Source: an uncultured Ulvibacter sp. (lineage in GTDB: Bacteria > Bacteroidota > Bacteroidia > Flavobacteriales > Flavobacteriaceae). From it: DNA of 64,000 nt. How positions within the stretch are numbered: the stretch's first letter is position 1; each line of letters opens with the position of its first letter. Below, piece by piece: positions 1 through 22,769 of this stretch. The notes beneath the pieces are model-generated. The model did not search any database. It was not told where the DNA came from and worked only from the letters and a program-made list of their open reading frames with translations. The DNA lies in contig CALIAF010000031.1 of NCBI GenBank assembly GCA_938041335.1, positions 124,001-188,000 on the forward strand, read 5' to 3'. Made by a program: the position numbers and the translations under genes.

Positions 1-476
1 GAATTACCTACCAATTAGACCTAGAAAAAGTCTGGATTGATGTAGAGGCGATTGAAAAATATATTGCTCTAGGTAACGAAGCACTAGCAGATGAAGAGGA
101 CTTGGCTATAAAAGCGTACAAAGCTGCCATAGATTTATATCAAGGTATGTATTTACCAAATAGAATCTTTGAAGACTGGTCATCAGAAGAACGCGAGAAA
201 ATCCAAATATTAATCCTTGGCGCATACGTTACACTTGCTGAACTAATAGTTGGAGAAAACCCAATGGAAAGTGTCCGTCTGGCACAACATGCTATTGCAA
301 TAGACGCCACCTGGGAAGATGCCTATCGCATACAAATGAAGGCGTACATAGCAAAAGGCAACCGGCCGCACGCAATAAAGGCCTACCAAAAATGTGCTGA
401 TGTTTTGGAAGAAGAATATGGCATTGATCCATTGCCTGAAACAAAAGCGTTGTTGAAGGAGATTGAAAATAGGTGA
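1..476 (+). CDS. C-terminal part of a BTAD-domain transcriptional regulator (5' truncated by window)
   Basis: The frame is open from base 3 to the TGA at 474-476, so the gene begins before the window and only about 157 residues are visible. They form helical TPR-like repeats typical of the bacterial transcriptional activator domain (BTAD) found at the C-terminus of SARP/AfsR-type regulators: a YQGMYLP segment, an EEREKI helix, then AYRIQMKAYIAKGNRPHAIK and the ending EEYGIDPLPETKALL. In this family the BTAD follows an OmpR-like winged helix, which would lie upstream. The TTG at 102 is internal, not the start. What it regulates is unknown; it lies just upstream of the phasin-like genes. Confidence 0.8.
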   Translation, partial: ITYQLDLEKVWIDVEAIEKYIALGNEALADEEDLAIKAYKAAIDLYQGMYLPNRIFEDWSSEEREKIQILILGAYVTLAELIVGENPMESVRLAQHAIAIDATWEDAYRIQMKAYIAKGNRPHAIKAYQKCADVLEEEYGIDPLPETKALLKEIENR

Positions 477-859: not shown

Positions 860-1120
860 ATGGCAACTAAGAAAAGTAAAAAAGCAAAAGCAACGATCAT
901 TGAAACTACTACTAATAAAGTATTAGGTTTTGCAACAATGGCAAATGAATTTGTTTTAGCTAAAACAGAAAAAGCAGTAATGACATCTTTTGCAATGACA
1001 GAAAAGTGTATTGGTTTTTCGGGTAAACTAATGAAGAAAGGGCTACAGGTTTCTGCATCACAACAAGATATGGTGTTTGATGTACTTGGCAGCATCAAGA
1101 AAAAAGTAGTAAAAAAATAA
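860..1120 (+). CDS. Small phasin-like helical protein (paralogue 1)
   Basis: An 86-residue protein with a Lys-rich start (MATKKSKKAKAT), one amphipathic helical domain, and a Lys-rich end. No signal peptide or membrane span is visible. The segment ANEFVLAKTEKAV...GLQVSASQQDMVFDVLGSIKKK closely parallels the protein encoded at 2137 (ANEYALDTTETVV...GLKLASAQQDLVFDLLTSVKKQ), and more loosely the N-terminus of the 1218 protein. Short helical proteins of this look are usually annotated as phasin-family or phasin-like proteins, which coat storage granules. The assignment here rests on general resemblance plus the neutral-lipid genes downstream. Promoter elements A and B precede it. Confidence 0.55.
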   Translation: MATKKSKKAKATIIETTTNKVLGFATMANEFVLAKTEKAVMTSFAMTEKCIGFSGKLMKKGLQVSASQQDMVFDVLGSIKKKVVKK

Positions 1121-1142
1121 GGATAACACCTTGAAAATAAGG

Positions 1143-1182
1143 TTGCAACTCATCTGTAACTAGCAGATAGTATGTTTGCACC
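1143..1182 (+). promoter_or_regulatory. 40-bp promoter element, copy C
   Basis: Third copy: TTGCAACTCAT + CTGTAACTAGC direct repeats, then TATGTTTG at 1171-1178. It lies between the first and second phasin-like genes, 35 bp before the ATG at 1218, so the second gene has its own copy of the same control element. Confidence 0.7.
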
Positions 1183-1217
1183 AACAAAAGTAAATAAAAA
1201 TCTTAAAGACATATATT

Positions 1218-2096
1218 ATGACAACTAAAGTAAAAAAGACAGTAACTAAAGTAAATAAAGGATTGATAAATGCATCTATGGCAGCAATCAATACAACAGT
1301 AGCAAACGGCGAAAAATGGCAAAAACTTTCTAAAAAGTTAATCAAGAAGTCTGAGCCAGTGCGCACAAAGCAAATGAATATGGTTCTAGAAACTGCAACA
1401 GCAGTAAAAGAGCAAGCTACAACTGGAGCAGAAAGAATGATGGATCTAGTAGGTTATGATGCATCTGTTGTAGACAAAGCAATGAGCTTTGTAACTAAAA
1501 ATCCATTAAGCAAAAAGGTGATGGATGTTGCTGAGGATGTTACAGAAATGGTAACTAAAAATCCAATGGTGAAGAAAGTAGAAAAAACTACTGACGGAAT
1601 CAAAAAAATGAGCATCGCAAAATACAACGACGTTAAAGAAGACGTTCTTGAGCAAGCGACTAAAATCCTTAAAAAAGGAGAAGAGTTTGTAGAAGATGCA
1701 AAGGAGCCAAAAAAAGTAGCTAAGAAAACAGCAAAGAAAACTACTAAGAAAGTAACAGCGAAGGTTGCTCCTAAAGTAAAGGCAGCTAAAAAGACAGTAG
1801 CTAAAAAAGCAACTGCAGCAAAGAATACTACTGCTAAAAAAACGGCAGCAGTAAAGAAAACAGTAACAAAAGTGGTAGCAAAAAAGACAACTGCGACTAA
1901 AACTGCTGCGAAGAAAGCAACTACCACAGCTAAAAAAGCAGTAAAGACAATCAAAACCGACGGAGCAGAAAAAGTAGCAGCAGCAAAGAAAGTAGCTACT
2001 AAGAAAGTTGCAACAGTTGAAAAAGCAGCAAAAGACATCAAAACTAATGTGACAAATAAAGTTGCAGACGTGAAGAAAGAAGAAGCTAAAGCGTAA
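1218..2096 (+). CDS. Phasin-like protein with histone-H1-like Lys/Ala tail (paralogue 2)
   Basis: 292 residues in two parts. Residues 1 to about 160 are amphipathic helices resembling the neighbouring small paralogues (GEKWQKLSKKLIKKSE, MNMVLETATAVKEQ), with an internal TKNP-centred repeat (FVTKNPLSKKV and MVTKNPMVKKV). Residues from about 165 onward are almost only Lys, Ala, Thr and Val in AKKTxxKK repeats, like bacterial histone-H1-type DNA-binding tails. The layout resembles PhaM of polyhydroxybutyrate producers, a phasin-like protein whose Lys/Ala/Pro-rich tail ties granules to the nucleoid; that parallel is from knowledge, and the function here is inference. A long open frame on the opposite strand is a compositional shadow. 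Confidence 0.6.
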   Translation: MTTKVKKTVTKVNKGLINASMAAINTTVANGEKWQKLSKKLIKKSEPVRTKQMNMVLETATAVKEQATTGAERMMDLVGYDASVVDKAMSFVTKNPLSKKVMDVAEDVTEMVTKNPMVKKVEKTTDGIKKMSIAKYNDVKEDVLEQATKILKKGEEFVEDAKEPKKVAKKTAKKTTKKVTAKVAPKVKAAKKTVAKKATAAKNTTAKKTAAVKKTVTKVVAKKTTATKTAAKKATTTAKKAVKTIKTDGAEKVAAAKKVATKKVATVEKAAKDIKTNVTNKVADVKKEEAKA

Positions 2097-2136
2097 TGAC
2101 TAATCGCTTTTTTATAAAAGCATTAAAGATATTAAG

Positions 2137-2424
2137 ATGAAAAAAAACATAAAAAAAACTGCACCTAAAGAGATGATCTCTAAAGTGGTGAAGACTACAA
2201 AAAAAGCGGTTGTAAATGCAAATGAGTATGCGCTAGACACAACAGAGACTGTTGTGACAGAAGGAATAGCAATCACTTCACAATGGCAAACAGTAACGGA
2301 AAAAGCGATTAAAGGTGGTCTTAAGTTAGCATCTGCGCAACAAGATTTAGTATTTGATTTGCTAACATCTGTAAAGAAACAATACAAAGACGGTAAGAAA
2401 AAGTTTACCAAGCTTGTGGCATAG
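2137..2424 (+). CDS. Small phasin-like helical protein (paralogue 3)
   Basis: 95 residues, 40 bp after the H1-tailed gene and with no 40-bp promoter element of its own, so probably co-transcribed with it. The core is homologous to the 860 product (GLKLASAQQDLVFDLLTSVKKQ against GLQVSASQQDMVFDVLGSIKKK) and both ends are Lys-rich. No transmembrane segment or catalytic motif is visible. It probably has the same type of role as its two paralogues. The trio ends at a clear terminator, which separates it from the lipid operon. Confidence 0.55.
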   Translation: MKKNIKKTAPKEMISKVVKTTKKAVVNANEYALDTTETVVTEGIAITSQWQTVTEKAIKGGLKLASAQQDLVFDLLTSVKKQYKDGKKKFTKLVA

Positions 2425-2452
2425 TAAGTTTTAAGTTTAAGTTTAGAAAATG

Positions 2453-2488
2453 AACGGGCTGTATCGAGAGATATGGCTCGTTTTTTTT
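2453..2488 (+). terminator. Rho-independent terminator of the phasin-like genes
   Basis: A 13-bp stem (AACGGGCTGTATC pairing with GATATGGCTCGTT, three G-U pairs) with a GAGA tetraloop, followed directly by a T-run. Confidence 0.85.
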
Positions 2489-2536
2489 ATTAAATAATCT
2501 CTTGAGATTACCATGTTTAATGTTTAAATTTACGTG

Positions 2537-2550
2537 TTATGCATGCATAA
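2537..2550. promoter_or_regulatory. Perfect 14-bp palindrome upstream of TetR gene
   Basis: TTATGCATGCATAA is a perfect palindrome 133 bp before the TetR-type gene. It is a candidate operator; no direct evidence. Confidence 0.4.
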
Positions 2551-2591
2551 TACTCCAATTTGGTTTATAGATAAAACGAATGTGATTTTTG

Positions 2592-2606
2592 GAATGTTAA
2601 ACATTC
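2592..2606. promoter_or_regulatory. Candidate TetR operator, GAATGTT-A-AACATTC
   Basis: A perfect 7+1+7 inverted repeat 77 bp before the TetR-type start codon. TetR-family regulators normally bind such sites near their own promoter, so autoregulation of the lipid operon is a reasonable inference. Confidence 0.5.
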
Positions 2607-2682
2607 ATTAATTGTGCGGTTTCGATTCCTTTTAAGAGTGCAAATGGACTATTAATTACGTATTTTTACAAGAGATTCAATA

Positions 2683-3336
2683 ATGGCAAAAAAGAAAAAA
2701 ATTACGGCTTCGAGTCTCATCGATTTATATATGGGTGAGGTGGTTAGATTGCAGGGAAAACCTGTGGATGTTGCCTCTTTTGGAGCAGTATATGATTTTG
2801 AAGAAGATGATTTTTACTCACATTTTGAAAGTTTTGCAGCAATAGATCAGGCTATTTTTAAAATCCTTTTTGATACCTCCGTCGATACATTAGGAGAAAG
2901 TCCAGATTATGTTTCGTTTAGCAGAAAGGATAAGCTGTTAAGTTTATTTTACACCTTTTTTGAAAATCTAACACTTAATAGAGATTTTGTTTTGGTAGTA
3001 ATTGATACTTACGGAAATCAACTCAAGGCATTGTCTGTTTTTTCAGATATGAAAATTAGCTTTTCTAACTTTATGAAAGTACTTGATTTTAATACCTTAA
3101 ATTTAAGTATTGAAAAGGTAGAAAGCCTTCAGAAAACATCTATTACAGAAGGCGCTTGGATCCAGTTGTTACTTACTATTAAATTCTGGATGACAGATGA
3201 GTCAATAGACCTCCAGAAGACCGATATATTTATTGAAAAATCATTAAATACAAGCATAGAATTACTCAATACACAATCTTTCCATAACATCTTAGATTTG
3301 GGTAAATTTTTGTATGCTGAAAAATTTAAATCGTAA
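2683..3336 (+). CDS. TetR-family-like transcriptional regulator
   Basis: 217 residues. The N-terminus reads like a TetR helix-turn-helix domain: ITASSLIDLYMGEVVRL as helix 1, then a VYDFEEDDFYSHFESFAAID stretch that matches the usual YxHFxSxxxL recognition-helix region. The remaining 150 residues are all-helical, as expected of a ligand-binding and dimerisation domain; the ligand is unknown. It is the first gene of the lipid operon: 8 bp separate its stop from the next start, and two palindromes lie upstream. A fatty-acyl-CoA-like ligand would fit the context but is only a guess. Confidence 0.7.
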   Translation: MAKKKKITASSLIDLYMGEVVRLQGKPVDVASFGAVYDFEEDDFYSHFESFAAIDQAIFKILFDTSVDTLGESPDYVSFSRKDKLLSLFYTFFENLTLNRDFVLVVIDTYGNQLKALSVFSDMKISFSNFMKVLDFNTLNLSIEKVESLQKTSITEGAWIQLLLTIKFWMTDESIDLQKTDIFIEKSLNTSIELLNTQSFHNILDLGKFLYAEKFKS

Positions 3337-3344
3337 AATACGCA

Positions 3345-4670
3345 TTGAAAACCGCAAAAAACATCCCATTATCAAAGCTAAGTCGTGCTTCTAAGCTTGT
3401 ATCTACTGGAGCAAAAGTAGGTGTTAACTATTTAAAGTATTATGGGGATAAATTGGTGAATTCTGAAGAGGATGCAAAAGAACGTCTTAATGAGAACAAC
3501 GCCACAGATATTTATGATAGCCTAAAAACTTTAAAAGGGAGCGCGCTAAAAATGGCTCAAATGATGAGCATGGAGAAGAATATTATGCCCAAGGCATTCG
3601 TTGAAAAGTTCTCTTTATCTCAATTTTCTGTACCACCATTGTCCGCTCCGTTAGTTCTAAAAACATTTAAAAAATCTTTCGGAAAATTTCCAGATCAGTT
3701 ATTTGATTCCTTTAATACAGAAGCCGTGAATGCGGCAAGTATTGGACAAGTACACCGCGCAGAAAAAGAAGGTAAAATACTTGCGGTAAAAATCCAATAT
3801 CCGGGAGTAGCAGATAGCGTGCAGAGTGATTTAGCGATGGTAAAGCCCATTGCGATGAAGATGTTCAATATTAAAGGGGAACATTCTGAACAGTTTTTTA
3901 AAGAAATAGAAGGGAAGCTTTTAGAAGAAACGGACTATGTGTTAGAGCTGGCCCAAAGTCAAGAAGTAGTGCAAGGATGCGAGCATATTCTACACATAAA
4001 TTTTCCGAAGTATTACCCAGAATACTCCTCAAAACAGATCCTTACCATGGACTGGATGACTGGGATTCATCTTTCAGAATTCACCCAGATAAATACAGAT
4101 CAAGCAGCGTCAGACAAGTTAGGGCAGGCTTTGTGGGATTTTTACATGTATCAAATGCACGTATTGCGAAAGGTACATGCAGATCCGCATCCAGGTAATT
4201 TTTTAGTTTCTGAAGAGAAAGAATTAATTGCATTGGACTTTGGTTGTATGAAAGAGATTCCGCTAGAGTTTTACGAGCCTTACTACCAGCTTTTTAGTCA
4301 AGAAGTGATTACTGACGAAGCTTCTTTTGAGAAAAACTTATTAGCATTAGAAGTATTGCGTGATGATGATACAGAAGAAGATTTAATCTTTTTTAAGAAT
4401 ATGTTTAGAGAGGTTTTAGATTTATTCACAACGCCTTTTCAGCACGATACTTTTGATTTTAGTAATGCTACTTTTTTTGATGAAATATCAAAGTTAGGAG
4501 AGCGCTACATGAAAAATACAAACATTAGAAAACTAAACGGAAATAGAGGGTCACGACATATTGTTTATATGAATCGCACGTTTTTTGGTCTTTTTAGCTT
4601 GATGTTTGAATTGAAGGCAGATAACGTAAAGATTGATAATTATAAGAAGTATATTAAACAGATTAATTAG
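3345..4670 (+). CDS. ABC1/UbiB (AarF) family atypical kinase
   Basis: 441 residues with the ABC1-kinase marks: N-terminal KGSALKMAQ at 64-72 (the KxGQ region, here with Ala in place of Gly), Ala-loop NAASIGQVHRA at about 129-139, the nucleotide-binding lysine K149 in AVKIQYPGV, catalytic loop HADPHPGN at 278-285 and LDFG at 297-300. Members include UbiB/ADCK proteins linked to quinone and lipid metabolism. The start is TTG at 3345, 8 bp after the TetR stop; no ATG in frame fits as well. Position directly before the neutral-lipid acyltransferase suggests a role in lipid storage rather than quinone synthesis, which is inference. Confidence 0.85.
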   Translation: MKTAKNIPLSKLSRASKLVSTGAKVGVNYLKYYGDKLVNSEEDAKERLNENNATDIYDSLKTLKGSALKMAQMMSMEKNIMPKAFVEKFSLSQFSVPPLSAPLVLKTFKKSFGKFPDQLFDSFNTEAVNAASIGQVHRAEKEGKILAVKIQYPGVADSVQSDLAMVKPIAMKMFNIKGEHSEQFFKEIEGKLLEETDYVLELAQSQEVVQGCEHILHINFPKYYPEYSSKQILTMDWMTGIHLSEFTQINTDQAASDKLGQALWDFYMYQMHVLRKVHADPHPGNFLVSEEKELIALDFGCMKEIPLEFYEPYYQLFSQEVITDEASFEKNLLALEVLRDDDTEEDLIFFKNMFREVLDLFTTPFQHDTFDFSNATFFDEISKLGERYMKNTNIRKLNGNRGSRHIVYMNRTFFGLFSLMFELKADNVKIDNYKKYIKQIN

Positions 4671-4719
4671 CGATTGAGAGGTTTCCTTTTTCAAGGAAAT
4701 AGACAAATTATATTATTAT

Positions 4720-6561
4720 ATGGCAACAAAAATGGATTTAAAAGACATCATGCAAGATGCTTTTGATGGAAACATAAAACAGATATCAGGTTCTGATGCG
4801 GCATTTTTATATGCAGAGTCACCTACAAGCCCGATGCATATTGCAACATTAAACATTGTAGAGGGATCTTTAAAGTTTGAAGATTTCCGAAGTATTGTGC
4901 AGTCAAAAATGCATATGATCCCTAAGTTTAGACAGCGTTTAATGAACGTACCCATGAACCTCGATTATCCATACTGGGTGAATGATCCTAATTTTGATAT
5001 TGACTTGCATCTCACGCGTATTAAGTTACCAGATCCTGCAAACTGGAAAACGCTACGTAAAATGACATCTACAATTTTTAGTGCGCCATTAGATTTACGT
5101 CGTCCATTGTGGTCTGTTCATTTTATTGAAGGGATTGATGAGATTGCACAAGTGCCTAAAGGCTCTGTGGCTATATTGAGTAAGGTGCACCACGTGATGA
5201 TTGATGGGAGTTCTGGGGTAAGTCTTATGGGTGTTTTATTTGATAAAGAAGAAGGTGTGAAGGCTGATAAAATGAAAAAGCCGGTGAAGTATGAGCCAGA
5301 TCCTTTACCAGATGATTTGAGTTTATTGCTTAAAAGCGGATATGGATTTATAAAGAACCCTCTTAAAATACCGAAGACCATTGCAGAAACGGCTTATGCT
5401 TTTATGAAAAATAAAGCATCAAAGACTTTAAGCATTCAGAAAGAATTTACCACTGCTCGGTATCCCGTACCAATTACTATTTTTAACGGCTCTATATCTG
5501 CGAGACGTACCTGGGGTACAGCCATTTTATCATTTGATAGAGTAAATTCTTTACGCAAAAAAAGTGGCGGAAGTGTCAATGATATTATTGTCGCCATTTG
5601 TGCAGGAGCCATTAGAAAATATTTATTAGAAAAAGAGAAGTTGCCTTTACAGCCTTTAGTTGCAAACGTTCCTATTTCTATTAGAAGTGAGAACGATACA
5701 TCTACGGGAAACAAGATTGCAAATATGATGATCCAACTGGCAACTCATATTGAAGACCCATTAGAACGTCTAGAATATATAATGGAGCAGACCATGCTTG
5801 GTAAATCAAGACATAAGACTATGGGTGCAAAGACGTTGAGTAAAATGGCAGATGCTGTGCCTTTTGGCTTGGCAAATCTTGCTGCAGGATTATACAGTAA
5901 GTATAATATCAAAGACTTACACAGACCTCCCTTTAATGTAACGATTACAAATGTTCCTGGGCCAAGAAGCCTTTTGTATCTTAATGGTCATAAGGTTGTT
6001 TCTATGTTTGGACTGACACCTGTTGTTGATGGATTTGGGTTAATTATTGCAGCTTTTAGTTACAATGGACAGCTTACGATAACCGCTACAAGTGATGCGA
6101 AGACGATGCCAGATGCAGATAAATTTGCGCGTTACTTAAGAGATGCCGCAAATGAACTAGAGTTACTTGTTAAGGAAACTAAAAAAAGCCAAAATACAGT
6201 TGTACGTCCCTCTAGTGTGAAAAGTAAGAGTACCGTGTTTTTTAATACGCTGAAACGTCATCTAAAAAAAGAACCAGACTTAATCACTAAATTTAAAGGT
6301 CAATACCACATAGAGCTGGATATGGGAGATACCGCAGAGTGTTGGGTGATAGATTTAACAGGTAAAGAAGCAGTTGTCAAAAAGACAAAAGATCTTGATC
6401 CTGATACGATGATTGCAATAGAAGATGCAAATTTATATGCCATGTATAAGGGCAAATTATTATTTGATGAGTTAAAAGTGCAACGTCGCATTATACTGAC
6501 AGGTACGGTAGCAAACAAAAATAAATTCACTAAGTTAATCAAAGCTTTTTTAGATAGATAA
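4720..6561 (+). CDS. Wax ester synthase/diacylglycerol O-acyltransferase (WS/DGAT) fused to an SCP2 domain
   Basis: 613 residues. Residues 1-485 are a WS/DGAT: active-site HHVMIDG at 157-163 (HHxxxDG), PLW at 129-131, an ND motif at N287-D288 and NVPGPR at 411-416. Such enzymes transfer acyl groups from acyl-CoA to diacylglycerol or fatty alcohol, giving triacylglycerol or wax ester. Typical members end near 450-480 residues. Here a further domain (about 527-613) follows a basic linker; its pattern (CWVIDLTGKEAVVKK, DANLYAMYKGKL, then a final amphipathic helix) is that of an SCP2 sterol-carrier fold that binds acyl chains. The gap to the upstream gene is 49 bp with a small inverted repeat (4682-4699); the stop overlaps the next start by one base (TAATG). 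Confidence 0.9.
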   Translation: MATKMDLKDIMQDAFDGNIKQISGSDAAFLYAESPTSPMHIATLNIVEGSLKFEDFRSIVQSKMHMIPKFRQRLMNVPMNLDYPYWVNDPNFDIDLHLTRIKLPDPANWKTLRKMTSTIFSAPLDLRRPLWSVHFIEGIDEIAQVPKGSVAILSKVHHVMIDGSSGVSLMGVLFDKEEGVKADKMKKPVKYEPDPLPDDLSLLLKSGYGFIKNPLKIPKTIAETAYAFMKNKASKTLSIQKEFTTARYPVPITIFNGSISARRTWGTAILSFDRVNSLRKKSGGSVNDIIVAICAGAIRKYLLEKEKLPLQPLVANVPISIRSENDTSTGNKIANMMIQLATHIEDPLERLEYIMEQTMLGKSRHKTMGAKTLSKMADAVPFGLANLAAGLYSKYNIKDLHRPPFNVTITNVPGPRSLLYLNGHKVVSMFGLTPVVDGFGLIIAAFSYNGQLTITATSDAKTMPDADKFARYLRDAANELELLVKETKKSQNTVVRPSSVKSKSTVFFNTLKRHLKKEPDLITKFKGQYHIELDMGDTAECWVIDLTGKEAVVKKTKDLDPDTMIAIEDANLYAMYKGKLLFDELKVQRRIILTGTVANKNKFTKLIKAFLDR

Positions 6562-7496
6562 TGCAGTATAAAACACATACGTTTACAGCAAGTGATGGGG
6601 AGCAGATCTGTTATTATAAGTGGGATAAAGAAGAAAATGTATCTTTAAGAGGTGCCGTTCAGATTGCTCACGGGATAGGAGAACATGCGGCTAGGTATGA
6701 CGCTATTGCGCAACGTTTAGTGGAAGCTGGTTTTGTAGTTTACGCAAATGATCACAGAGCTCATGGCAAGACAGCAGAAATTAAAAGGTTATACGGTCAT
6801 TATGATGGAGATGACTATTTTGAGGATGCTGTAGATGATATGCACAGCTTAAGAGTGTTAATGCAAAAAGAAAACCCAGCTAGTAAATTTATACTTTTTG
6901 GTCACAGTATGGGTTCGCTTTTAAGTAGAAAATACGCTACGATGTATGGTGATGATATAGATGGGCTCATACTTTCTGGAACAGCAAGTTTTATTAAGGG
7001 TTTAGGGCATTTTGGTCTTGTGGCAACAAAACTTGTTACCTCTGTAAAAGGCAGGGTGAAAGGAAACGAAGCACTCAGGGCTATGTTTTTTGATGAGTTT
7101 AATAAAAAGTTTAAACCAAATCGCACAAAACTTGATTGGCTAAGCAGAGATGAAGAAGCGGTAGATCTTTTTGAGGCGGATCCCTATAGAATAGAAAATT
7201 TCTCATTAGGTGTTTTTGCAGATATTATTTCTAATTCGAGAACGATTAATAAGGAAGAGGCGTTTAAAACAGTACCCAATAAAATTCCAATTCTCATTTT
7301 TTCTGGTGATAAAGACCCAGTGGGAGAAATGGGTAAAGGAGTAAAAAAAGTAGTAAAAAAATTTAAAAAACATGGCAATAAAGAATTGACATTCCATCTT
7401 TATAAAAATGGACGTCACGAAATGCTAAATGAAATAAATAGCCAAGAAGTAGAAAAAGATATTATAGACTGGCTAGATATGCATATCCCCAAATAA
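6561..7496 (+). CDS. Alpha/beta hydrolase, monoacylglycerol-lipase-like
   Basis: 311 residues. HGIGEHAARYDAIAQRL and YANDHRAHGKT near the N-terminus are the signature of the monoacylglycerol lipase/lysophospholipase group (Hydrolase_4). The nucleophile elbow GHSMGS places Ser at 116; D252 in SGDKDPVG and H286 in GRHEML complete the likely triad. No signal peptide, so cytoplasmic. The start codon overlaps the WS/DGAT stop, so the two are probably translationally coupled. A role in neutral-lipid turnover or acyl recycling fits. Confidence 0.85.
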   Translation: MQYKTHTFTASDGEQICYYKWDKEENVSLRGAVQIAHGIGEHAARYDAIAQRLVEAGFVVYANDHRAHGKTAEIKRLYGHYDGDDYFEDAVDDMHSLRVLMQKENPASKFILFGHSMGSLLSRKYATMYGDDIDGLILSGTASFIKGLGHFGLVATKLVTSVKGRVKGNEALRAMFFDEFNKKFKPNRTKLDWLSRDEEAVDLFEADPYRIENFSLGVFADIISNSRTINKEEAFKTVPNKIPILIFSGDKDPVGEMGKGVKKVVKKFKKHGNKELTFHLYKNGRHEMLNEINSQEVEKDIIDWLDMHIPK

Positions 7497-7498
7497 TA

Positions 7499-8662
7499 AT
7501 GAACGAGAAATTACATTTATATAAAACCTTTTCACAATTTGCAACCACCTTAGGTCTCCTTAATGGCCTTAAAGAGAAGGATGCAAAAACCTTACTCGTA
7601 GAAAACTTTAATATACACCCAGAAAGTGAACTGATTATACCATATATCAATAAGATGGAGTTGGCTAAGGACGAGGATATCAAGTTCCTTTTTAATGAAA
7701 CTATTCGAATCTGTGATGAATTGGGACCTAGTCGAGAGTATATTACCTTATTAATGATAATACAAAGTATAGGTGATGTTGTAGCAAATCCAGATAATCT
7801 GAAGGAGAATCATATTACACAATCGGTAATTGAAAAATTTAAGTTAGAGATTGCACATATCAACCAGAAAATACCAAAACCACCTTTATTTAATATGCTT
7901 TTAGAAACTCGCTCTATCATAGAATGGGCTTCTATTTATGCTATTTATCCATTTATACCGAAAAGAATAAAAGGAGACGGTAGGCCTGTTTTATTAGTTC
8001 CGCCTTATTTAGGTGATGACTATTCTACTTCTTTTGTGCGTAGATATTTAACATCATTGGGTTTTAAAACGTATAAATGGGAAATGGGTTTTAATATGGT
8101 AAAGTCACATTATATTCCTAGGTTAGAAGAAAAGCTGGATGATATTTATCAAAAGCACGGGGAGAAAGTAAGCATCGTAGGATGGAGTGGTGGTGGTATC
8201 TTTGCTAAAATAATGGCAAACCGTCATCCTAATCAAGTAGAGCAAATAATTACTATTGCGTCGCCAATATGGGGCGTGATGGAAATGAAAACTCCAGTGT
8301 ATGGCATTTTAGAGTTCTTTAGAGGAAAATCTTTAAAGGAACGTAACAAACGCTTTTTAGCAGAATTAGAGCCTATTCCGGATGTTCCAGTGACTTGTTT
8401 ATATACTAAGACAGATGGTCTCGTGCCTTGGAAACACTGTATGGAAGCAGAAAGCTATAGAGGAAATATAAAAAACATTGAAGTCTTTGGCAGTCATTCT
8501 GGGCTAGGTGCAAATGCGAGTGTATTAATGATGACGGCAAATGCTTTGATAGCAAATATAAAAGGTCAAACCATTAATGACACAACATCAAATATTGAAC
8601 GCGTATTATACCCTAACTATTGGAGAAACAAGAAGCTAAATTTATTTGCTAAAAACTCTTAA
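7499..8662 (+). CDS. Alpha/beta hydrolase with helical N-terminal region
   Basis: 387 residues. An all-helical N-terminal 150 residues is followed by an alpha/beta hydrolase core with RPVLLVPPYLGDDY (oxyanion strand) and the elbow GWSGGG, nucleophile Ser230. A likely Asp lies in TKTDGLVPW and the His in FGSHSGLG. The core resembles PhaC/PhaB-type polyester enzymes in layout, but the nucleophile is Ser, not the Cys of polyhydroxyalkanoate synthases, so a lipase/esterase is more likely. It starts 2 bp after the previous stop. Substrate unknown. Confidence 0.75.
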   Translation: MNEKLHLYKTFSQFATTLGLLNGLKEKDAKTLLVENFNIHPESELIIPYINKMELAKDEDIKFLFNETIRICDELGPSREYITLLMIIQSIGDVVANPDNLKENHITQSVIEKFKLEIAHINQKIPKPPLFNMLLETRSIIEWASIYAIYPFIPKRIKGDGRPVLLVPPYLGDDYSTSFVRRYLTSLGFKTYKWEMGFNMVKSHYIPRLEEKLDDIYQKHGEKVSIVGWSGGGIFAKIMANRHPNQVEQIITIASPIWGVMEMKTPVYGILEFFRGKSLKERNKRFLAELEPIPDVPVTCLYTKTDGLVPWKHCMEAESYRGNIKNIEVFGSHSGLGANASVLMMTANALIANIKGQTINDTTSNIERVLYPNYWRNKKLNLFAKNS

Positions 8663-8677
8663 GAGAGACATTATCAT

Positions 8678-11600
8678 ATGGAAGAAATAATCAATAACAT
8701 AGCATTTCAGAAGACGCTCAAACGCATCGCTACAGAACAAAAAATGGACCTAGGCAAGGTGAAAAAGGAAGCTGCTAGTTGTATTAAAGAACTATATGCA
8801 GCGCAGCACCCTATAGCAAAAATGATAAGTGTTCGTGGTTTTGATTACATCTTGTCAAGGGCATATAGTGATAAAATAGACGTTGACCCCGACGGATTAA
8901 CAAGGTTGATGAAAATCATGCGTAAGCACTCTGTCGCCTTTATAATGACACACAAAACCTATTTGGACACCTTGGTCTTAATGTCAACTCTAGCGCGATA
9001 CGGAATGCCAGTACCGTATTCTTTTGGCGGTGATAATCTGGCATTTCCGGGTTTAAAACAGTTAGGTCAAAATGCAGGGCTAATATTTATTAGGCGTAGT
9101 TTTAAAGACGACATTATCTACAAAGCGGCATTACGTCATTACATTGCTACCATAATTGATAAAGGGGAACATCTTACTTGGAACATAGAAGGAACTCGAT
9201 CTCGAACGGGAAAAATATTGCGCCCACAAATGGGGATTTTAAAATACATTCATGAAGCAGAGCAACAAAGTACCAAGAATATAAAATATGTTCCGGTATC
9301 TATTGCCTATGATTTGATTCCAGATGTGAAGCAAATGACAGAGGAAGGAAAAGGACTTACTAAAAAATCTGAGAATGTAAAAGAAGGAATAGATTATGTG
9401 CGAAAGTTGGGTAACGATTTTGGCCGTGCCGCAATTCGTTTTGGGAATCCTGTAGAATTTGATGGGAGTCATCAAGCGGTGATTCCTCATATGGAAGAAG
9501 ACCAATACAAGGATAAAAACAGCTTACCTCGTTTTGCCTTTGAGCTGATCAACAGAGCGACAGCTATCACGCCAGTTTCTACGGTATCACTAATATGCAA
9601 TGTGTTACTTAATGATTTTGCTTTGACAAAAAAGGAGCTAGAATTTAAGGTGAGTAAATTAATGGCTCATATAGGCACAAAACGAGAGGATGTACTCGTA
9701 GATCGGGGTAACCCTATTGCAAATACGATACAGAAATCACTTAATTTATTGCAGAGTGCGGGTATTGTACAGAAAAGTAGAGCAGGCCAGCGTGCTCAAT
9801 ATAGTTTAGTTTCTACAGAGTATTTACCGGCTACGTATTATGCAAATATGGCTGCTGGTCATTTATACCATTCTGCATTTATTGAAATGGCATTGGTGAA
9901 AATTAAAGACGATACATCTAAAGATCGTATTGTGAAATTTTGGGAAGAGATTATGCGATTGCGCGATCTTTTTAAGTTTGAATTTTTCTATACTAATAAA
10001 CCACAGTTTAGTAAAGAGATAGAGACAGAATTAGAACGATTTGACAAGAACTGGCGCGCTATTATTACAAATCCAAATAAGGATGTCTCCGAAATATTAA
10101 AGAACCAAAACCTCTTCGTTTCTCGTTCCTTATTACTCACTTATCTAGAGGCAGATAAAGTAGTTTGTCATACATTAAACAACTGGGACCAAGACGATGC
10201 TTTTAGAGAAAGAGAATTTTTAGAACTCTGCATGTTTAAAGGGAAAGAGCTGCACTGGCAAACGCGAATTACACGTTTAGACAGCGTGTCAAAACCTTTT
10301 TTAAGCAATGCATTACGATTTGCAGAAAACGCAAAACTTACACCCATTGACCGAAAGATAAATTTTAAGGGCTTAGAAAATTGGATGACACAGTTGGATG
10401 ATCTTTCTCAAAGATTGGCGTATTTAAAAGAAATTGAAGTTGCTCCTAGTCTTAAGATGATTAAGAAGCAAAAAGCAACAGATTTGGTGCCAGACTCAAA
10501 GAATAAACTAGTTCCAGAAAAAGTAGAAGATGCAGAAGAAGGAAGTCATATCACAGCTTACTTTGATATGGACAAAACGTTAATTAATGATTTTTCTGCT
10601 AAGAAATTTATGACCACAAGGTTATTTAGCGGTAAAACAACAGTCAAAGAATATCTGACACAGTTTATGACGGCGCTTGTGTTTGCTTTAGGGAATCGTG
10701 ATTTTGAGATTTTAACAAAAATTGCAACCTTAGGTGTAAAAGGGATTGCAGAAAAAGCATTTATAGACTTGGGTCAGTCTGTTTTTGATGACCATCTTGC
10801 TGCAACCATTTATCCTGAATCAAGAGAACTCATTAAGGCACATAGAGCTGAGGGACATCGTGTGGTTATCATATCTGCGGCAACTTCTTACCAGATAGCA
10901 CCTATTGCAAAAGAATTAGGCATCAAGGATGTGTATAGTACCAATATGGAAGTACGCAATGGTAAGTTTACGGGTAGTATTTCTGAAATGTGCTGGGGCG
11001 AAGGAAAGGCTAGAGCAGCCAGGAAAGATGCTAAAAAACATAAAACCGATCTATCTAAGAGTTACTTTTATTCTGACAGCTTTGATGATTTCCCACTTTT
11101 TGAATTAGTAGGAAAACCAGTTGCTACAAATCCTGATTCTAGATTATCGCAAGTCGCATTTGAAAACAATTGGCCCATCTTACGGTTTGAAGAGCCGGTA
11201 ACTAAACCAGCTGTAAATGGATTAAGAACAGGACTAGCCGTGGCAAGCATTTATCCATCTGCTATAAAAGGTGCACTCACTGGATTAATGACGATGTCTA
11301 AGCAGCAAGCGGCAAATGCAACATTTGCAAGCATTGGAGATTTAGGGACTAAACTCGCAGGCTTACAGATATCTGTAAAGGGCAGACACAACTTAGAAGA
11401 ATTTAGACCTGCCGTTTTTTGTTTTAATCATCAGAGTGCGGCAGACTTCTTTATTATAATGAAGATACTTCGTAACGATATAACAGGTGTGGCAAAAAAG
11501 GAACTAGAACGAACACCTATAGGTCCAATATTTAAAGCTTTGGGGGCTATTTATGTAGATCGTAGCAACAAAGAAAAAGCTATTGAAGCGATGGAACCAG

Positions 11601-11908
11601 CAGTAGAGGCTTTACGCAGTGGTATTTCCGTAGCAATCGCACCAGAAGGAACACGCAGCGGAAGCATTGAATTGGGTCGTTTTAAGAAAGGAGCTTTTCA
11701 TCTGGCAATGCAAGCGGGAGTGCCTATTATTCCTATTGTTATTAAAAATGCCTATCAGGCAATGCCTAAAGGAACTAAAGTACTGCGCCCTACGCATATT
11801 GAGGTTGTGGTCCTAGATCCCGTGGATACCTCTTTATGGAAATTAAAAAATTTAAATACACATATTGAAAATGTACGCGATATGTATGTAAAAGAATTGA
11901 CAAATTAA
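8678..11908 (+). CDS. Trifunctional fusion: glycerol-3-phosphate acyltransferase - HAD phosphatase - lysophosphatidate acyltransferase
   Basis: 1076 residues, three enzyme modules in one chain. (1) About 60-600, PlsB-like: HKTYLD at 92-97 (HX4D), EGTRSR at 171-176, then YVPVSIAYD and a long helical C-terminal part. (2) About 620-850, HAD-IB hydrolase of the phosphoserine-phosphatase type: DMDKT at 630-634, IISAATSY, and SDSFDD with D800. (3) About 890-1076, PlsC: NHQSAAD (H918 to D923), FKALGAIYVDR, EGTRS at 990-994, VPIIPIVI. HAD-PlsC fusions are known in actinobacteria; adding an N-terminal GPAT gives glycerol-3-phosphate to lysophosphatidate to phosphatidate and, if the HAD part acts on phosphatidate, diacylglycerol. 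That last step is inference. No membrane-spanning helix is obvious. It is 15 bp from the previous gene. Confidence 0.85.
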   Translation: MEEIINNIAFQKTLKRIATEQKMDLGKVKKEAASCIKELYAAQHPIAKMISVRGFDYILSRAYSDKIDVDPDGLTRLMKIMRKHSVAFIMTHKTYLDTLVLMSTLARYGMPVPYSFGGDNLAFPGLKQLGQNAGLIFIRRSFKDDIIYKAALRHYIATIIDKGEHLTWNIEGTRSRTGKILRPQMGILKYIHEAEQQSTKNIKYVPVSIAYDLIPDVKQMTEEGKGLTKKSENVKEGIDYVRKLGNDFGRAAIRFGNPVEFDGSHQAVIPHMEEDQYKDKNSLPRFAFELINRATAITPVSTVSLICNVLLNDFALTKKELEFKVSKLMAHIGTKREDVLVDRGNPIANTIQKSLNLLQSAGIVQKSRAGQRAQYSLVSTEYLPATYYANMAAGHLYHSAFIEMALVKIKDDTSKDRIVKFWEEIMRLRDLFKFEFFYTNKPQFSKEIETELERFDKNWRAIITNPNKDVSEILKNQNLFVSRSLLLTYLEADKVVCHTLNNWDQDDAFREREFLELCMFKGKELHWQTRITRLDSVSKPFLSNALRFAENAKLTPIDRKINFKGLENWMTQLDDLSQRLAYLKEIEVAPSLKMIKKQKATDLVPDSKNKLVPEKVEDAEEGSHITAYFDMDKTLINDFSAKKFMTTRLFSGKTTVKEYLTQFMTALVFALGNRDFEILTKIATLGVKGIAEKAFIDLGQSVFDDHLAATIYPESRELIKAHRAEGHRVVIISAATSYQIAPIAKELGIKDVYSTNMEVRNGKFTGSISEMCWGEGKARAARKDAKKHKTDLSKSYFYSDSFDDFPLFELVGKPVATNPDSRLSQVAFENNWPILRFEEPVTKPAVNGLRTGLAVASIYPSAIKGALTGLMTMSKQQAANATFASIGDLGTKLAGLQISVKGRHNLEEFRPAVFCFNHQSAADFFIIMKILRNDITGVAKKELERTPIGPIFKALGAIYVDRSNKEKAIEAMEPAVEALRSGISVAIAPEGTRSGSIELGRFKKGAFHLAMQAGVPIIPIVIKNAYQAMPKGTKVLRPTHIEVVVLDPVDTSLWKLKNLNTHIENVRDMYVKELTN

Positions 11909-11943
11909 ACAGAAATTTAACCAACCAATACTAGAGTTTTGAA

Positions 11944-12000
11944 ATGCCCAATACCAATTTATGAACCAACCGAAGATGCATATTTGGGCATATCATCTTC
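11944..12000 (+). promoter_or_regulatory. Interlocking inverted repeats in the gpsA leader (possible pseudoknot)
   Basis: ATGCCCAA (11944-11951) pairs with TTGGGCAT (11984-11991). GAAGATG (11972-11978), inside that loop, pairs with CATCTTC (11994-12000), outside it. The two stems cross, as in an H-type pseudoknot, or are alternatives. They lie 25 bp before gpsA. No terminator-like T-run follows. Confidence 0.35.
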
Positions 12001-12024
12001 ACGTTTATCAAATAATTTGAACAG

Positions 12025-13026
12025 ATGAAATTAAATGTAGGACTTTTAGGAGGTGGCTCGTGGGGAACCACAGTTGCTTCAATTACCGCAAAGAATACCG
12101 AAACCACCTTGTGGGCCCGTAATAAGGAAACGGTAAACGAGATTAATGAACACAATACAAACTCAAAGTATTTACCGGGTGCAAAGCTCAATAAAAACTT
12201 AAAGGCATCTACTTCTATCCAAGAAGTGGTTGAAAATGCAGATGTGTTGATTATGGGAGTGCCGTCTCAACATTTTAGGCAAGTATTGCGGGATGCAAGA
12301 CCTTTTATAAGACCGTGGATTCCTATTGTAAGCCTGGCAAAAGGACTAGAACTAGGAACAAAAATGAGAATGACTCAGATCATTGAAGAAGAACTTCCGG
12401 GACATCCCGCTGGTGTTTTAACCGGACCCAATCTTGCTAAAGAAATTCATAATGGTCAAGCTGCCGCTGCTGTAATTGCGATGGTAGATAAAACCATAGG
12501 TAAAAAGTTGCAGGGTATCTTTAATTCTGGACTCTTTAGAGTGTATACCAATACAGATGTCATAGGATGTGAGTTAGGTGGTGCATTAAAAAATATTATG
12601 GCAATCGCAACAGGAATGGGAGATGGAGCAAATGCAGGTGATAATACAAGAGCCGCATTAATTACAAGAGGCTTATCTGAACTTACTAGATTAGGGACAG
12701 CCATGGGAGGGAAGCAACGAACATTTGCAGGTCTTGCTGGTATGGGAGATTTAGTGGCTACTTGTTCTAGTTCAAAATCTAGAAACCATCATGTAGGATT
12801 CCAGATAGGAAGAGGTAAAAGCTTAGATCAGATTATTGAAGAAATGAATGAAGTAGCAGAAGGGGTCAAGACGGCCAAGGCAGTGATGGAGTTAGCAGAA
12901 GATTATAATGTAGATATGCCCATATCACGCGAGGTGTATAAGGTGTTATATGAAGGTAATACAGTGTTAGATGCTTTTAAAGGACTAGTGAAATTGGAGA
13001 GTGGGAGTGAGCAGGAGCCGGGGTAA
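12025..13026 (+). CDS. gpsA: Glycerol-3-phosphate dehydrogenase [NAD(P)+]
   Basis: 333 residues. GLLGGGSWGTT is the nucleotide-binding loop; SLAKGLELGTKMRM, LTGPNLAKEI, the catalytic-lysine region ELGGALKNIMAIATGM, and GLAGMGDLVATCSSSKSRN are family signatures. It reduces dihydroxyacetone phosphate to sn-glycerol 3-phosphate, the substrate of the acyltransferase fusion upstream. The motif wording (SLAKGLELGT, DLVATCSSSKSRN) reads more like actinobacterial and proteobacterial GpsA than like the usual flavobacterial housekeeping form (IGGGSWATAI), which suggests a dedicated or acquired copy; this is from memory, not alignment. It closes the lipid operon. Confidence 0.92.
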   Translation: MKLNVGLLGGGSWGTTVASITAKNTETTLWARNKETVNEINEHNTNSKYLPGAKLNKNLKASTSIQEVVENADVLIMGVPSQHFRQVLRDARPFIRPWIPIVSLAKGLELGTKMRMTQIIEEELPGHPAGVLTGPNLAKEIHNGQAAAAVIAMVDKTIGKKLQGIFNSGLFRVYTNTDVIGCELGGALKNIMAIATGMGDGANAGDNTRAALITRGLSELTRLGTAMGGKQRTFAGLAGMGDLVATCSSSKSRNHHVGFQIGRGKSLDQIIEEMNEVAEGVKTAKAVMELAEDYNVDMPISREVYKVLYEGNTVLDAFKGLVKLESGSEQEPG

Positions 13027-13147: not shown

Positions 13148-13232
13148 GGAGAGTTGGCAGAGTGGTCGAATGCGGCAGTCTTGAAAACTGTTGAGGGTCA
13201 CACCTCCAGGGGTTCGAATCCCTTACTCTCCG
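13148..13232 (+). tRNA. tRNA-Ser (anticodon TGA)
   Basis: An 85-nt class II tRNA: 7-bp acceptor stem (GGAGAGT with ACTCTCC) plus discriminator G, anticodon loop CTTGAAA giving TGA, a long variable arm, and T-loop GGTTCGAATCC. The CCA is not encoded. A hairpin terminator follows. Confidence 0.95.
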
Positions 13233-13242
13233 CTTAGAGCAA

Positions 13243-13274: not shown

Positions 13275-13301
13275 GCATTTCAAGAAATGTCAAGAGCACA
13301 G

Positions 13302-13505
13302 CTCTTGTAAATGCATTGAAATGCAAAAAGCCCGCATATCGCGATAGCGATATTGTGCTTTATTGTAAGGTGTGGAGCCTTAGGGATCTGTAATCCCAAT
13401 GACGGTGCCTCTTGTAAATGCATTGAAATGCAAAAAGCCCGCATATCGCGATAGCGATATTGTGCTTTATTTTAAGGTGTGGAGCGTTAGGGATCTGTAA
13501 TCCCA
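13302..13505. repeat. Two direct copies of a 97-bp palindrome-rich repeat
   Basis: Copies at 13302-13398 and 13409-13505 (period 107 bp) differ at only about two positions. Each holds ATATCGC-GATA-GCGATAT and GGGAT-CTGTA-ATCCC hairpins. Each also has TGAAATGCAAAAAGCCC, the exact inverse of 13266-13282 in the tRNA terminator flank. This looks like a REP/BIME-type or small non-autonomous element; no coding potential. It fills most of the 385-bp gap between the tRNA and the metal island. Confidence 0.75.
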
Positions 13506-13525
13506 TTTTATTTAGCAAAAGGTTT

Positions 13526-13617: not shown

Positions 13618-15369
13618 TTATTCAATCACCTGCTTCACACTACCACATTTTAACATCGCATCGCCAAAGTACGGATTCAATACTTTTTCTTCTTTGCTTA
13701 ACCAATATGCGCCGCTATCATTATCTGCCATAGGGCAAAATTGACTGTACACTTTTTCGTTTATTCCAAAGGTTTCAATGGCGCTTGTTAAATGTATTGA
13801 TAAATGCTTAAAGTGGCTTCTTTGTTCTTTTATGTCTGCTATTTTTGAAATAGAACCAACGGAAGATTTAATTTCCTTTTCTAAAGCCATCCAATCCGTA
13901 TGTGCTTTTTCATCTTTTAGTAGTTTCATATCAACATTAGTTAAACTACTTAATATGTTTTTTGCTTCTTTAGTTACACCATTTAAATCATCTTTAACTA
14001 AAGCATCTTTTAGTTTAATATAGTCATTGAAAACCATTTTTAACTGTTCTTGAAATATGGCAGATACTTTTAGTCGCTCATTTTTTGTGGTATTGGACAT
14101 TTCCATTCCAATGTGTCCTTCGTGTCCTGTCATTGTTTTTCCACCTTCTTTATTCATCATAGACTTTTTGCCTTGTAATTGTGCCGAAGCATCAACAGTA
14201 AATGTACCATTGATTACAATCTCGTCCCCACTTTTAAGTCCATCAATAACTTCGTATTGTTCTCCTAATTGATTTCCTATTGTTATTTCTTTCATTTCAA
14301 AAATGGGTTCATCAGGATTTGTTTTTTGATAAACAACAGAGCGTTCTCCTGTCCACAATATGGCAGTTGCAGGTATCATTAAACTTGATTCTTTATTTGA
14401 CGAAGTGTTTACAATATTGCCTTCAACAAACATTCCTGTTTTAAATTCTCGATTGTTATTATTTAATACTACTCGAAGTTTAACTGTTCTTGTAGCTGAA
14501 TTAAATGTAGGGTCTATAAAATCTACTTTCTTTTTAAATTCTTTATTTGGATAGGCAGCAGCAGTAACCGTAATATCTTGCCCTTTTTTAAATAATTCTA
14601 TCTGATTTTCATAAACATCAAACAATGCCCAAACAGTACTTAAGTTTGTGATTTTCAATAAGGCTTGCCCTTGTTTCACATAGTCGCCCTGCTCCACTAA
14701 CTTTTCGGATACTGTTCCAGAAACTGTAGCATATATTGGAAAATTTTGTTTCACTTTTCCAGATGCTTCAATTTGGTCAATTTGGCTATCAGAAATTTTC
14801 CAAAGTTTTAATTTATTACGGACCGCCTTATATAATGCAGGCTGTGCTTCTTTAAATGACGAAGCAGTAATTAACTCTTGTTGCGCAGAAAATAGTTCAG
14901 GTGAATAAATGGTGGCTAATAATTGCCCTTTTCTTATTTCTTCGCCTGTTGAACTAATATTTAATCGTTCTATTCTACCTGAAAAATAACTTGCTTGCAC
15001 AACGTTAGCTTCTTCGTTTTCTGCAATCTTTCCAGACAATTTAATAGTGGCATCTTTACTGGTGCTACTACCAACAGTGGAGGTTTGAATGTTAGCCAAT
15101 GCCATTGCGTTTTTAGTAAGCTTAAATTCGTTGGCATTTAATCCTTCTGCGCTCGTTTCAGCAGGAATTAAATCCATTCCACAAATAGGGCAATCGCCTG
15201 CTTCGGGTTGCATTATTTGAGGATGCATAGAACAGGTCCATTTTTGATTAGCTTCTATGGTTTCAGAATGATTATGAGTAGCCTCTTTCTCATTAGTATT
15301 TCCAAATATGCCCCAACCTATTAATAATCCAACAGTTAATATTCCGGTATAAGTTAAAATCTTTTTCAT
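13618..15369 (-). CDS. cusB: CusB-like periplasmic adaptor of a heavy-metal RND efflux pump
   Basis: About 583 residues from the ATG at 15369 (a TTG nine bases upstream is less likely). An N-terminal membrane anchor (TYTGILTVGLLIGWGIF) is followed by a metal-binding domain with CSMHPQIMQPEAGDCPICGM, the barrel/lipoyl/coiled-coil adaptor fold (SGRIERL, GQLLATIYSPEL, EQGDYVKQGQAL), and a C-terminal DUF3347-like domain ending QFCPMA...NPYFGDAMLKCG. It links the CusA-like pump to the CusC-like channel and captures copper or silver in the periplasm. It is the last gene of the minus-strand island, 10 bp after the DUF2911 gene. Confidence 0.9.
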   Translation of the reverse strand: MKKILTYTGILTVGLLIGWGIFGNTNEKEATHNHSETIEANQKWTCSMHPQIMQPEAGDCPICGMDLIPAETSAEGLNANEFKLTKNAMALANIQTSTVGSSTSKDATIKLSGKIAENEEANVVQASYFSGRIERLNISSTGEEIRKGQLLATIYSPELFSAQQELITASSFKEAQPALYKAVRNKLKLWKISDSQIDQIEASGKVKQNFPIYATVSGTVSEKLVEQGDYVKQGQALLKITNLSTVWALFDVYENQIELFKKGQDITVTAAAYPNKEFKKKVDFIDPTFNSATRTVKLRVVLNNNNREFKTGMFVEGNIVNTSSNKESSLMIPATAILWTGERSVVYQKTNPDEPIFEMKEITIGNQLGEQYEVIDGLKSGDEIVINGTFTVDASAQLQGKKSMMNKEGGKTMTGHEGHIGMEMSNTTKNERLKVSAIFQEQLKMVFNDYIKLKDALVKDDLNGVTKEAKNILSSLTNVDMKLLKDEKAHTDWMALEKEIKSSVGSISKIADIKEQRSHFKHLSIHLTSAIETFGINEKVYSQFCPMADNDSGAYWLSKEEKVLNPYFGDAMLKCGSVKQVIE

Positions 15370-15379
15370 CTCAAACAAT

Positions 15380-15967: not shown

Positions 15968-15976
15968 AGTTTATTT

Positions 15977-16714: not shown

Positions 16715-16798
16715 TTTTATAATTTTAAATTCAATAAGCGTGTTAACTATAAATAGTATGTGGCAACATCAGATACATATTACCACATACTGTAGTGA

Positions 16799-17050: not shown

Positions 17051-17094
17051 TTTAATTGATTTTATAGTTAATAATAATTGAGTTTTAATTTTTG

Positions 17095-17814: not shown

Positions 17815-17817
17815 GAT

Positions 17818-19035: not shown

Positions 19036-19036
19036 T

Positions 19037-22741: not shown

Positions 22742-22769
22742 TGATTTGTTTTTTAAACAGTTAGACATT

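Follow-up and report, generated by a model that had tools for sequence, protein, structure and literature searches.

The 64,000-nt stretch of DNA considered here (the window; positions 124,001 to 188,000 of contig CALIAF010000031.1 from an uncultured Ulvibacter sp.) carries a genuine, conserved gene unit, which is probably a dedicated neutral-lipid droplet locus equipped with synthesis enzymes, coat proteins, control by a SARP-type regulator and lipid-handling parts. A sequence-only reading of the window had described ten genes in order on one strand, with spacings of 8, 49, −1, 2, 15 and 116 bp; all ten open reading frames (ORFs) were found on the + strand from position 860 to 13026, and all six spacings are as claimed. 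In order, they comprise phaA, phaB and phaC for candidate coat proteins, a TetR-fold gene followed by abc1, and then wsdgat (WS/DGAT with a C-terminal SCP2 domain), the alpha/beta hydrolase genes abh1 and abh2, gpat (a GPAT-HAD-LPAAT fusion) and gpsA. Pfam and NCBIfam agree on the identities proposed for ABC1, WS/DGAT-SCP2, the two hydrolases, the fusion and GpsA. The names phaA, phaB, phaC, up1 and up2 were coined in this analysis, and phaC is not the synthase gene for polyhydroxyalkanoate (PHA). The unit is larger than ten genes: up1 and up2 lie upstream, bringing it to about twelve. Both are found in all 26 unit loci that extend far enough upstream, and neither occurs in any of 26 neighbourhoods of TetR–ABC1 pairs without WS/DGAT (up1 was not searched genome-wide).

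A scan of a species-genome collection with two short peptide patterns from the WS/DGAT alignment, which therefore reaches close relatives only, yielded 28 related loci, all from Flavobacteriaceae by record title (the family placement of some of the genera is presumed); cultured carriers include Dokdonia sinensis and Patiriisocius marinus. The complete ten-gene set, in the same order and on the same strand, is present in 24 of them; the remaining four (L018, L020, L030 and L031) are truncated at contig ends, with the order preserved in the surviving part, while abh1 is broken in one otherwise complete locus (L015). Thus, the clustering of homologues in related genomes, on which the sequence-only reading depended, is borne out. 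Its proposal of one neutral-lipid unit stood to the extent that the genes for glycerol-3-phosphate supply, acyl transfer, WS/DGAT, hydrolases and candidate coat proteins occur together in relatives. Across 23 of the 28 loci (L015, L018, L020, L030 and L031 left out), the twelve genes have pairwise distances that correlate at 0.70-0.96, which fits a unit inherited together. Against the nearest relative, the ratio of nonsynonymous to synonymous substitution rates (dN/dS) of the ten genes is 0.03-0.21, a rough estimate given that dS exceeds 1 for 8 of the 10. A WS/DGAT of this kind is encoded by 4 of 59 relatives, counting the source genome (G000); loci L029, L006 and L011 are contigs of the carriers G005, G006 and G008.

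One variant locus, in genome G506, reads GlpK-GlpD fusion, wsdgat, abh1, abh2, gpat, gpsA, up1, up2, a 243-aa ORF, phaA, phaB and phaC. Its WS/DGAT shares 60% identity with that of the window, and both operators (described below) are kept despite the permuted gene order; the TetR–ABC1 pair was not found within the 31 kb read at this locus. That the enzyme genes, up1, up2, the coat genes and the operators are all kept in this rearranged locus indicates that the coat and synthesis arms belong together, with glycerolipid as the common theme. The 243-aa ORF between up2 and phaA (L214 9652-10383) has no Pfam match over the cut-off.

The three genes described as phasin-like are real, conserved and basic, but none of their products matches any model over a curated cut-off. 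That they are genes follows from their retention in 26 of the 28 loci (the other two are truncated before that point), from dN/dS values of 0.06-0.21 relative to the nearest relative, and from the alignment of phaC to the phaB N-terminus in a profile–profile comparison (hhalign, 95%). Upstream of the window, up1 encodes a protein of 204 aa with a basic tail, helical by its alignment pattern (23 of 26 sequences aligned). The phaB tail in the window is rich in lysine and alanine (43 lysines in 132 residues, pI 10.6), while 16 of 27 phaB homologues carry an HHH_5 (helix-hairpin-helix) domain and 19 of 26 relatives the motif GIGPK or GVGPK. NCBIfam PhaH matches 19 of the 27 homologues, alongside L21 and complex-I models, and an Apolipoprotein model matches 3. 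On the basis of the Lys/Ala tail or the helix-hairpin-helix, as sequence features, a DNA tether of the PhaF or MLDS type formed by phaB is plausible.

Several observations weigh against a phasin-like, DNA-tethering coat. Neither Pfam nor NCBIfam phasin models match phaA, phaB or phaC of the window, and PF05597 (Phasin) matches just 3 of the 27 phaB homologues, weakly (best E 0.0026). The helix-hairpin-helix is not found in the window's own phaB, and the PhaH match elsewhere may reflect that domain alone. Moreover, the PDB chains closest to the helix-hairpin-helix end of phaB belong to complex I and to a reaction centre, so this domain need not bind DNA and may bind protein. As for the cargo, PhaC_N (PF07167) was not found in the source genome and 19 relatives, which makes PHA unlikely. 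A point on the other side is that PF07167 may miss some classes of PHA synthase.

Two described systems come close to the coat arm, as far as the accessible parts of the papers go. MLDS and MLDSR of Rhodococcus jostii RHA1 (PMC5504291) are a droplet protein bearing a lysine-rich, DNA-binding C-terminus and the regulator that shares its operon; however, MLDSR binds a palindrome and has an XRE-type helix-turn-helix, and the operon as described there includes no synthesis genes. In Pseudomonas putida, PhaF ties granules to the nucleoid with an amphipathic N-terminus and histone-like Lys/Ala repeats, and PhaI, a small relative of the PhaF N-terminus, parallels the phaC/phaB pair (PMC5658603). Those proteins coat PHA granules, whereas here PhaC_N was not found in the 20 genomes, and most phaB relatives have a helix-hairpin-helix domain.

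The window begins inside up2 (266 aa; whole gene G000:C31:123676-124473 plus stop). Its BTAD domain matches PF03704 at 66 bits against a cut-off of 22.1; the N-terminal winged-helix domain has no Pfam match, and a PDB sequence search with the SARP profile gave no match. The AlphaFold model of the closest homologue (90% identical; mean confidence score, pLDDT, 85.8) has AfsR (8k60, 8hvr) and EmbR (2ff4, 2fez) as its six best PDB rows, with the whole model aligning over 254-265 columns, and up2 is accordingly modelled as a small SARP-type protein of a winged helix plus BTAD. Among 395 genomes of the order, four (G000, G005, G617 and G745) encode up2 at 73% identity or more, and all four bear the operator; a fifth match, in G501, shares 25% identity and lies in a 1,131-residue frame.

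This operator is an 18-bp direct repeat, TGYAACT-N4-TGYAACT, placed 9 nt before TAnnTTTG, which we take to be the Bacteroidetes -7 element; there are two copies upstream of phaA, one upstream of phaB and none in 100 shuffles. The 51 repeat sites in 26 loci are all on the + strand and upstream of phaA (24 of 26 loci) or phaB (25 of 26), the exact operator being absent before phaA in L021 and L024 and before phaB in L016. The 59 relatives have 11 sites in 4 genomes, all at this locus, and 397 genomes of the family have 23 sites in 11 genomes, on the WS/DGAT contig within about 11 kb; the reversed pattern has none in the same 397. A separate search of these genomes for WS/DGAT returned the same 11; treating genomes as independent, an assumption that does not hold, puts the odds of this coincidence by chance at 1.2e-21. 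According to the available parts of PMC10972967 and PMC5930380, the binding sites of SARPs are direct repeats of heptamers, separated by 4 nt and located near the -35 region, and the pattern found here has that geometry. In both protein fold and operator layout by the core promoter, the arrangement resembles that of the Streptomyces activators AfsR and PimR, which differ in targeting antibiotic genes rather than storage-coat genes preceded by a TAnnTTTG element. Two points temper the argument. The 11 operator genomes overlap the 28 loci, as judged by identical sites (e.g. G617/L005, G689/L007, G747/L025, G745/L026 and G507/L016), so that the two surveys are not independent; and the putative pairing of up2 with the operator is drawn from co-occurrence and geometry. 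In open PMC, no paper on SARP or BTAD proteins in Bacteroidetes was found.

The gap after phaC contains a terminator-like hairpin in 21 of 26 loci, the other 5 falling short of the same criterion; the hairpin appeared in 1 of 520 shuffles and in 0 of 32 other coat-gene gaps. There are thus probably at least two transcription units, as far as this pattern allows. Together with the SARP-type regulator and its fitting operators, and with a TetR-fold protein that no helix-turn-helix model matches, the hairpin leaves the earlier claim of a whole locus under one repressor without support.

In the synthesis arm, WS/DGAT scores 404.2 bits against TIGR02946 (cut-off 309.95) and has the motif HHVMIDG (HHxxxDG) at residues 157-163, invariant in 4 of 4; by family, it would transfer acyl groups to diacylglycerol or fatty alcohol. 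A lipase role is likewise predicted for abh1, and the candidate triad of abh2, S230-D306-H333, is invariant in all 21 aligned sequences (the source sequence and 20 of 27 homologues). The fusion matches the domain models PF19277 and PF01553 and remains below equivalog cut-offs (NF002886, 433.4 vs 721 bits; TIGR03703, 163.7 vs 618.5). GpsA reaches 500.2 bits against NF009098 (cut-off 436), and the carriers G000, G005, G006 and G008 have 3, 3, 2 and 2 gpsA copies, compared with one each in six members of the genus without the unit. This dedicated extra gpsA and the GlpK-GlpD neighbour in G506 favour triacylglycerol, which is the most likely product.

The protein described as a TetR-type regulator does have a TetR fold and matches TetR_C_23, but no helix-turn-helix (TetR_N) model matches it. 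It is acidic (pI 4.8), and the region where regulators carry a recognition helix reads FEEDDFYSHF, with homologues mostly acidic or neutral and with few basic residues there (by eye). Among the 50 structural matches listed for its model, human COQ9 takes ranks 3-6 (Z 13.7-14.0; root-mean-square deviation 4.0-4.7 over 174-185 residues), although Z values below about 13 may be common among helical folds. A COQ9-like role is therefore a lead from modelling, and other results speak against it: the model (pLDDT 85.3) keeps the N-terminal helix-turn-helix layout, its best structural matches are the TetR regulators 3c07 and 3ni7 (Z 17.9 and 16.6), further regulators tie with COQ9, and Pfam at E up to 0.01 gives TetR_C_23 only, with COQ9 not matched. 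Foldseek returned no match at E 0.001 for this model, with COQ9 not among the 50 rows shown, and neither did a PDB sequence search with the corresponding profile.

The partner protein is an ABC1 family member (PF03109, 186.2 bits vs 22.9, E 7e-55) that does not reach the UbiB equivalog cut-off (150.6 vs 487.55 bits). A TetR-like gene occurs in 30 of the 59 relatives and adjoins ABC1 in 30 of 30; for 25 of them, the 6-17 kb retrieved around the pair showed no other unit gene, and for one more, G009, just a gpsA remnant. None of these 26 loci has the operator. In the ABC1 tree, the 28 rows from unit loci group together (support 100/99), separate from the other 24; L119-L121 (the same records as L029, L006 and L011), L116 (a split frame) and L030 (a short sequence) were excluded. 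Beyond the unit, a second ABC1 at 67% identity is encoded in G582 and G745, and the sole ABC1 of G506, also 67% identical, is on another contig. The separate grouping and the ABC1s outside the unit suggest that a pre-existing TetR–ABC1 pair was recruited. Solo pairs in L093-L096, L099-L102, L112, L113 and L116 are followed by recurring genes that look, by eye, like SDR, photolyase/cryptochrome and GTP cyclohydrolase families, which suggests an older light- or oxidative-stress setting. COQ8 is itself an ABC1 protein, and ABC1 kinases are reported on plant plastoglobules. COQ9 is a lipid-binding TetR-fold protein and the partner of COQ7, according to the accessible part of PMC9774615. Ubiquinone synthesis likewise involves a TetR-fold and an ABC1 protein, COQ9 and COQ8; here, no ubiquinone gene was recognised among the genes of the unit.

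Loss is apparent in G009, the sister of the source genome in the ABC1 tree (a draft, 59% complete), where a decayed remnant of the gpsA end, interrupted by an in-frame stop, directly follows abc1 and precedes the same tRNA-Ser as in the window; this remnant implies that the synthesis genes of the unit were lost there. In the window, the tRNA-Ser(tga) lies at 13148-13233, directly 3′ of gpsA; it also occurs in L006, in L029 and, next to the decayed gpsA, in L118, and a scan of 26 further loci did not find it. An origin outside the phylum was sought among plasmid records, whose best matches are at 32% identity for the GPAT fusion and 34% for WS/DGAT. Within the phylum, PF03007 (WS/DGAT) is present in 21 of 395 genomes, counting the source. 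The other WS/DGATs do not belong to the unit: in 20 regions of 9-20 kb, drawn from 17 of the other 20 genomes (G091, G187 and G200 not included), identity is 22-26%, and no other unit gene was found alongside.

Taken as a pathway, which we infer from these assignments, GpsA would supply glycerol-3-phosphate, the fusion would acylate it twice, its HAD domain would probably remove the phosphate, and WS/DGAT-SCP2 would make the storage lipid, most likely triacylglycerol, that abh1 and abh2 would mobilise. The products of phaA, phaB, phaC and perhaps up1 would be basic helical coat proteins of the droplet, which the Lys/Ala tail or helix-hairpin-helix domain of phaB may tie to DNA. Regulator up2 may bind the two heptamers, 11 bp apart and upstream of the core promoter, to activate phaA and phaB. 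The TetR-fold and ABC1 proteins, stemming from an older flavobacterial pair, may act more like COQ9 and COQ8 than like a repressor and its neighbour. An extended form of this proposal, namely a lipid-droplet organelle with a one-locus SARP switch, DNA-tethering coats with exchangeable ends and a COQ9/COQ8-like pair on the droplets, is tentative, and we would sooner doubt than assert it.

The coat genes might instead encode nucleoid or stress proteins, resembling histone H1 or built on helix-hairpin-helix domains, with a loose tie to lipid storage. The Lys/Ala tails, the helix-hairpin-helix domains of the phaB family and the missing phasin matches in the window all suit this explanation; nevertheless, phaA, phaB and phaC remained with the synthesis genes through the G506 rearrangement and were not found in the 26 TetR–ABC1 loci without WS/DGAT (whole genomes were not searched), and we regard it as unlikely. 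As the name of the enzyme family covers both products, WS/DGAT could also esterify fatty alcohols to store wax esters, leaving GPAT and GpsA to serve membrane lipid only. This is distinctly unlikely, since the extra gpsA and the GPAT-HAD-LPAAT fusion of all 24 complete loci, as well as the GlpK-GlpD fusion beside WS/DGAT in G506, point to glycerolipid, and no gene for fatty-alcohol synthesis was recognised among those of the unit with Pfam and NCBIfam; PF07993, the probe for such synthesis, matched in all 14 controls and so does not discriminate.

A single operon repressed by a TetR-type regulator appears improbable. The TetR-fold gene does lie 8 bp from abc1, and its modelled product retains the layout of a DNA-binding protein, but the acidic or neutral recognition-helix region matches no helix-turn-helix model, the hairpin separates coat from synthesis genes, and in 25 genomes the TetR-like gene stands beside ABC1 with neither operator nor other unit gene found. 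The droplet locus with a SARP-controlled coat arm accommodates these observations and is the reading we retain.

The known storage-lipid droplets are mainly those of Actinobacteria and of some Proteobacteria, and a published letter reportedly deals with lipid droplets of gut bacteria. For Bacteroidota, open-licence PMC yielded gene surveys and no study of this unit. The sequence-only reading knew of no such compact unit in Flavobacteriaceae, which within that literature holds for the whole and overstates the novelty of the core: in the accessible part of Galvan et al. 2023 (PMC10351704), a flavobacterial WS/DGAT-SCP2 beside an acyltransferase/HAD (hydrolase) gene is already reported, as are Kennedy-pathway clusters with gpsA in Gammaproteobacteria. 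The Bacteroidota loci of that survey share the WS/DGAT-SCP2 architecture, a length of 613 +/- 15 aa and flavobacterial genera. For Bacteroidota, the same portion of the paper mentions neither coat genes nor a SARP regulator, an operator or ABC1; in its main text, 'phasin' appears a single time, in connection with a Betaproteobacteria scaffold, and 'ABC1' never. The main text of PMC10699116 has no ABC1, phasin, SARP or TetR, and PMC11495197 offered nothing relevant. Among actinobacterial Kennedy-pathway clusters, the plasmid-borne one of M. paragordonae also assembles WS/DGAT, an alpha/beta hydrolase, a HAD-acyltransferase and a GPAT-like gene within about 7.5 kb. There, however, the genes are separate, on both strands and in another order, identity is 25-36% in pieces, and tblastn found none of the other unit genes. 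The enzymatic core is thus of a known kind, and the new combination, as far as open-licence PMC shows, is that of a coat arm under a SARP-operator switch with a recruited TetR-fold/ABC1 pair.

Table. Features of the unit, with positions in the window
Feature	Position	Strand	Description
up2, 3′ part	1..476	+	SARP-type regulator; PF03704 BTAD
Operator/promoter-like site 1 of phaA	710..744	+	TGCAACT-N4-TGTAACT-N9-TACGTTTG
Operator/promoter-like site 2 of phaA	787..821	+	Sequence pattern
phaA	860..1120	+	Small basic phasin-like protein, 86 aa
Operator/promoter-like site of phaB	1144..1178	+	Sequence pattern
phaB	1218..2096	+	Helical N-terminus, Lys/Ala-rich tail
phaC	2137..2424	+	Small basic phasin-like protein, 95 aa, akin to phaB N-terminus
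Terminator-like hairpin 3′ of coat genes	2452..2483	+	Hairpin criterion
TetR-fold gene	2683..3336	+	No helix-turn-helix model match; possibly COQ9-like
abc1	3345..4670	+	ABC1/UbiB-like atypical kinase or ATPase; PF03109
wsdgat	4720..6561	+	WS/DGAT, C-terminal SCP2 domain; TIGR02946
abh1	6561..7496	+	Alpha/beta hydrolase 1; Hydrolase_4 family, PF12146 6.9e-48
abh2	7499..8662	+	Alpha/beta hydrolase 2; candidate triad S230-D306-H333
gpat	8678..11908	+	GPAT - HAD-IB - LPAAT three-domain fusion; PF19277, PF12710, PF01553 (two stretches)
gpsA	12025..13026	+	Extra glycerol-3-phosphate dehydrogenase copy of the unit; NF009098

Downstream of the unit, at approximately 13300-13510, a sequence of about 107 bp stands in two tandem copies that are nearly identical, with the palindrome ATATCGCGATAGCGATAT at 13336 and 13443. 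The copies are followed on the - strand (13618-22768) by a metal-efflux-like cluster with genes for an HMBD/HlyD membrane-fusion protein, DUF2911, HMA-MauE, OEP and an AcrB-type pump, within which an alpha-acetolactate-decarboxylase-like gene also lies.

Bacteroidota are a major group of marine heterotrophs. Among marine flavobacteria, storage droplets have been little studied, and a compact unit that is spread over many genera and cleanly lost in a close relative opens their fat storage to direct testing. It also offers a set of parts for oil production, and its operator lets the likely whole regulon of one regulator be read from the genome. Often present where the unit is not, the TetR-fold/ABC1 pair provides a simple bacterial system for ABC1/COQ8 action on lipids; if a COQ9/COQ8-like pair has indeed been recruited to droplets, this would parallel, in bacteria, the ABC1 kinases on the plastoglobules of plants.

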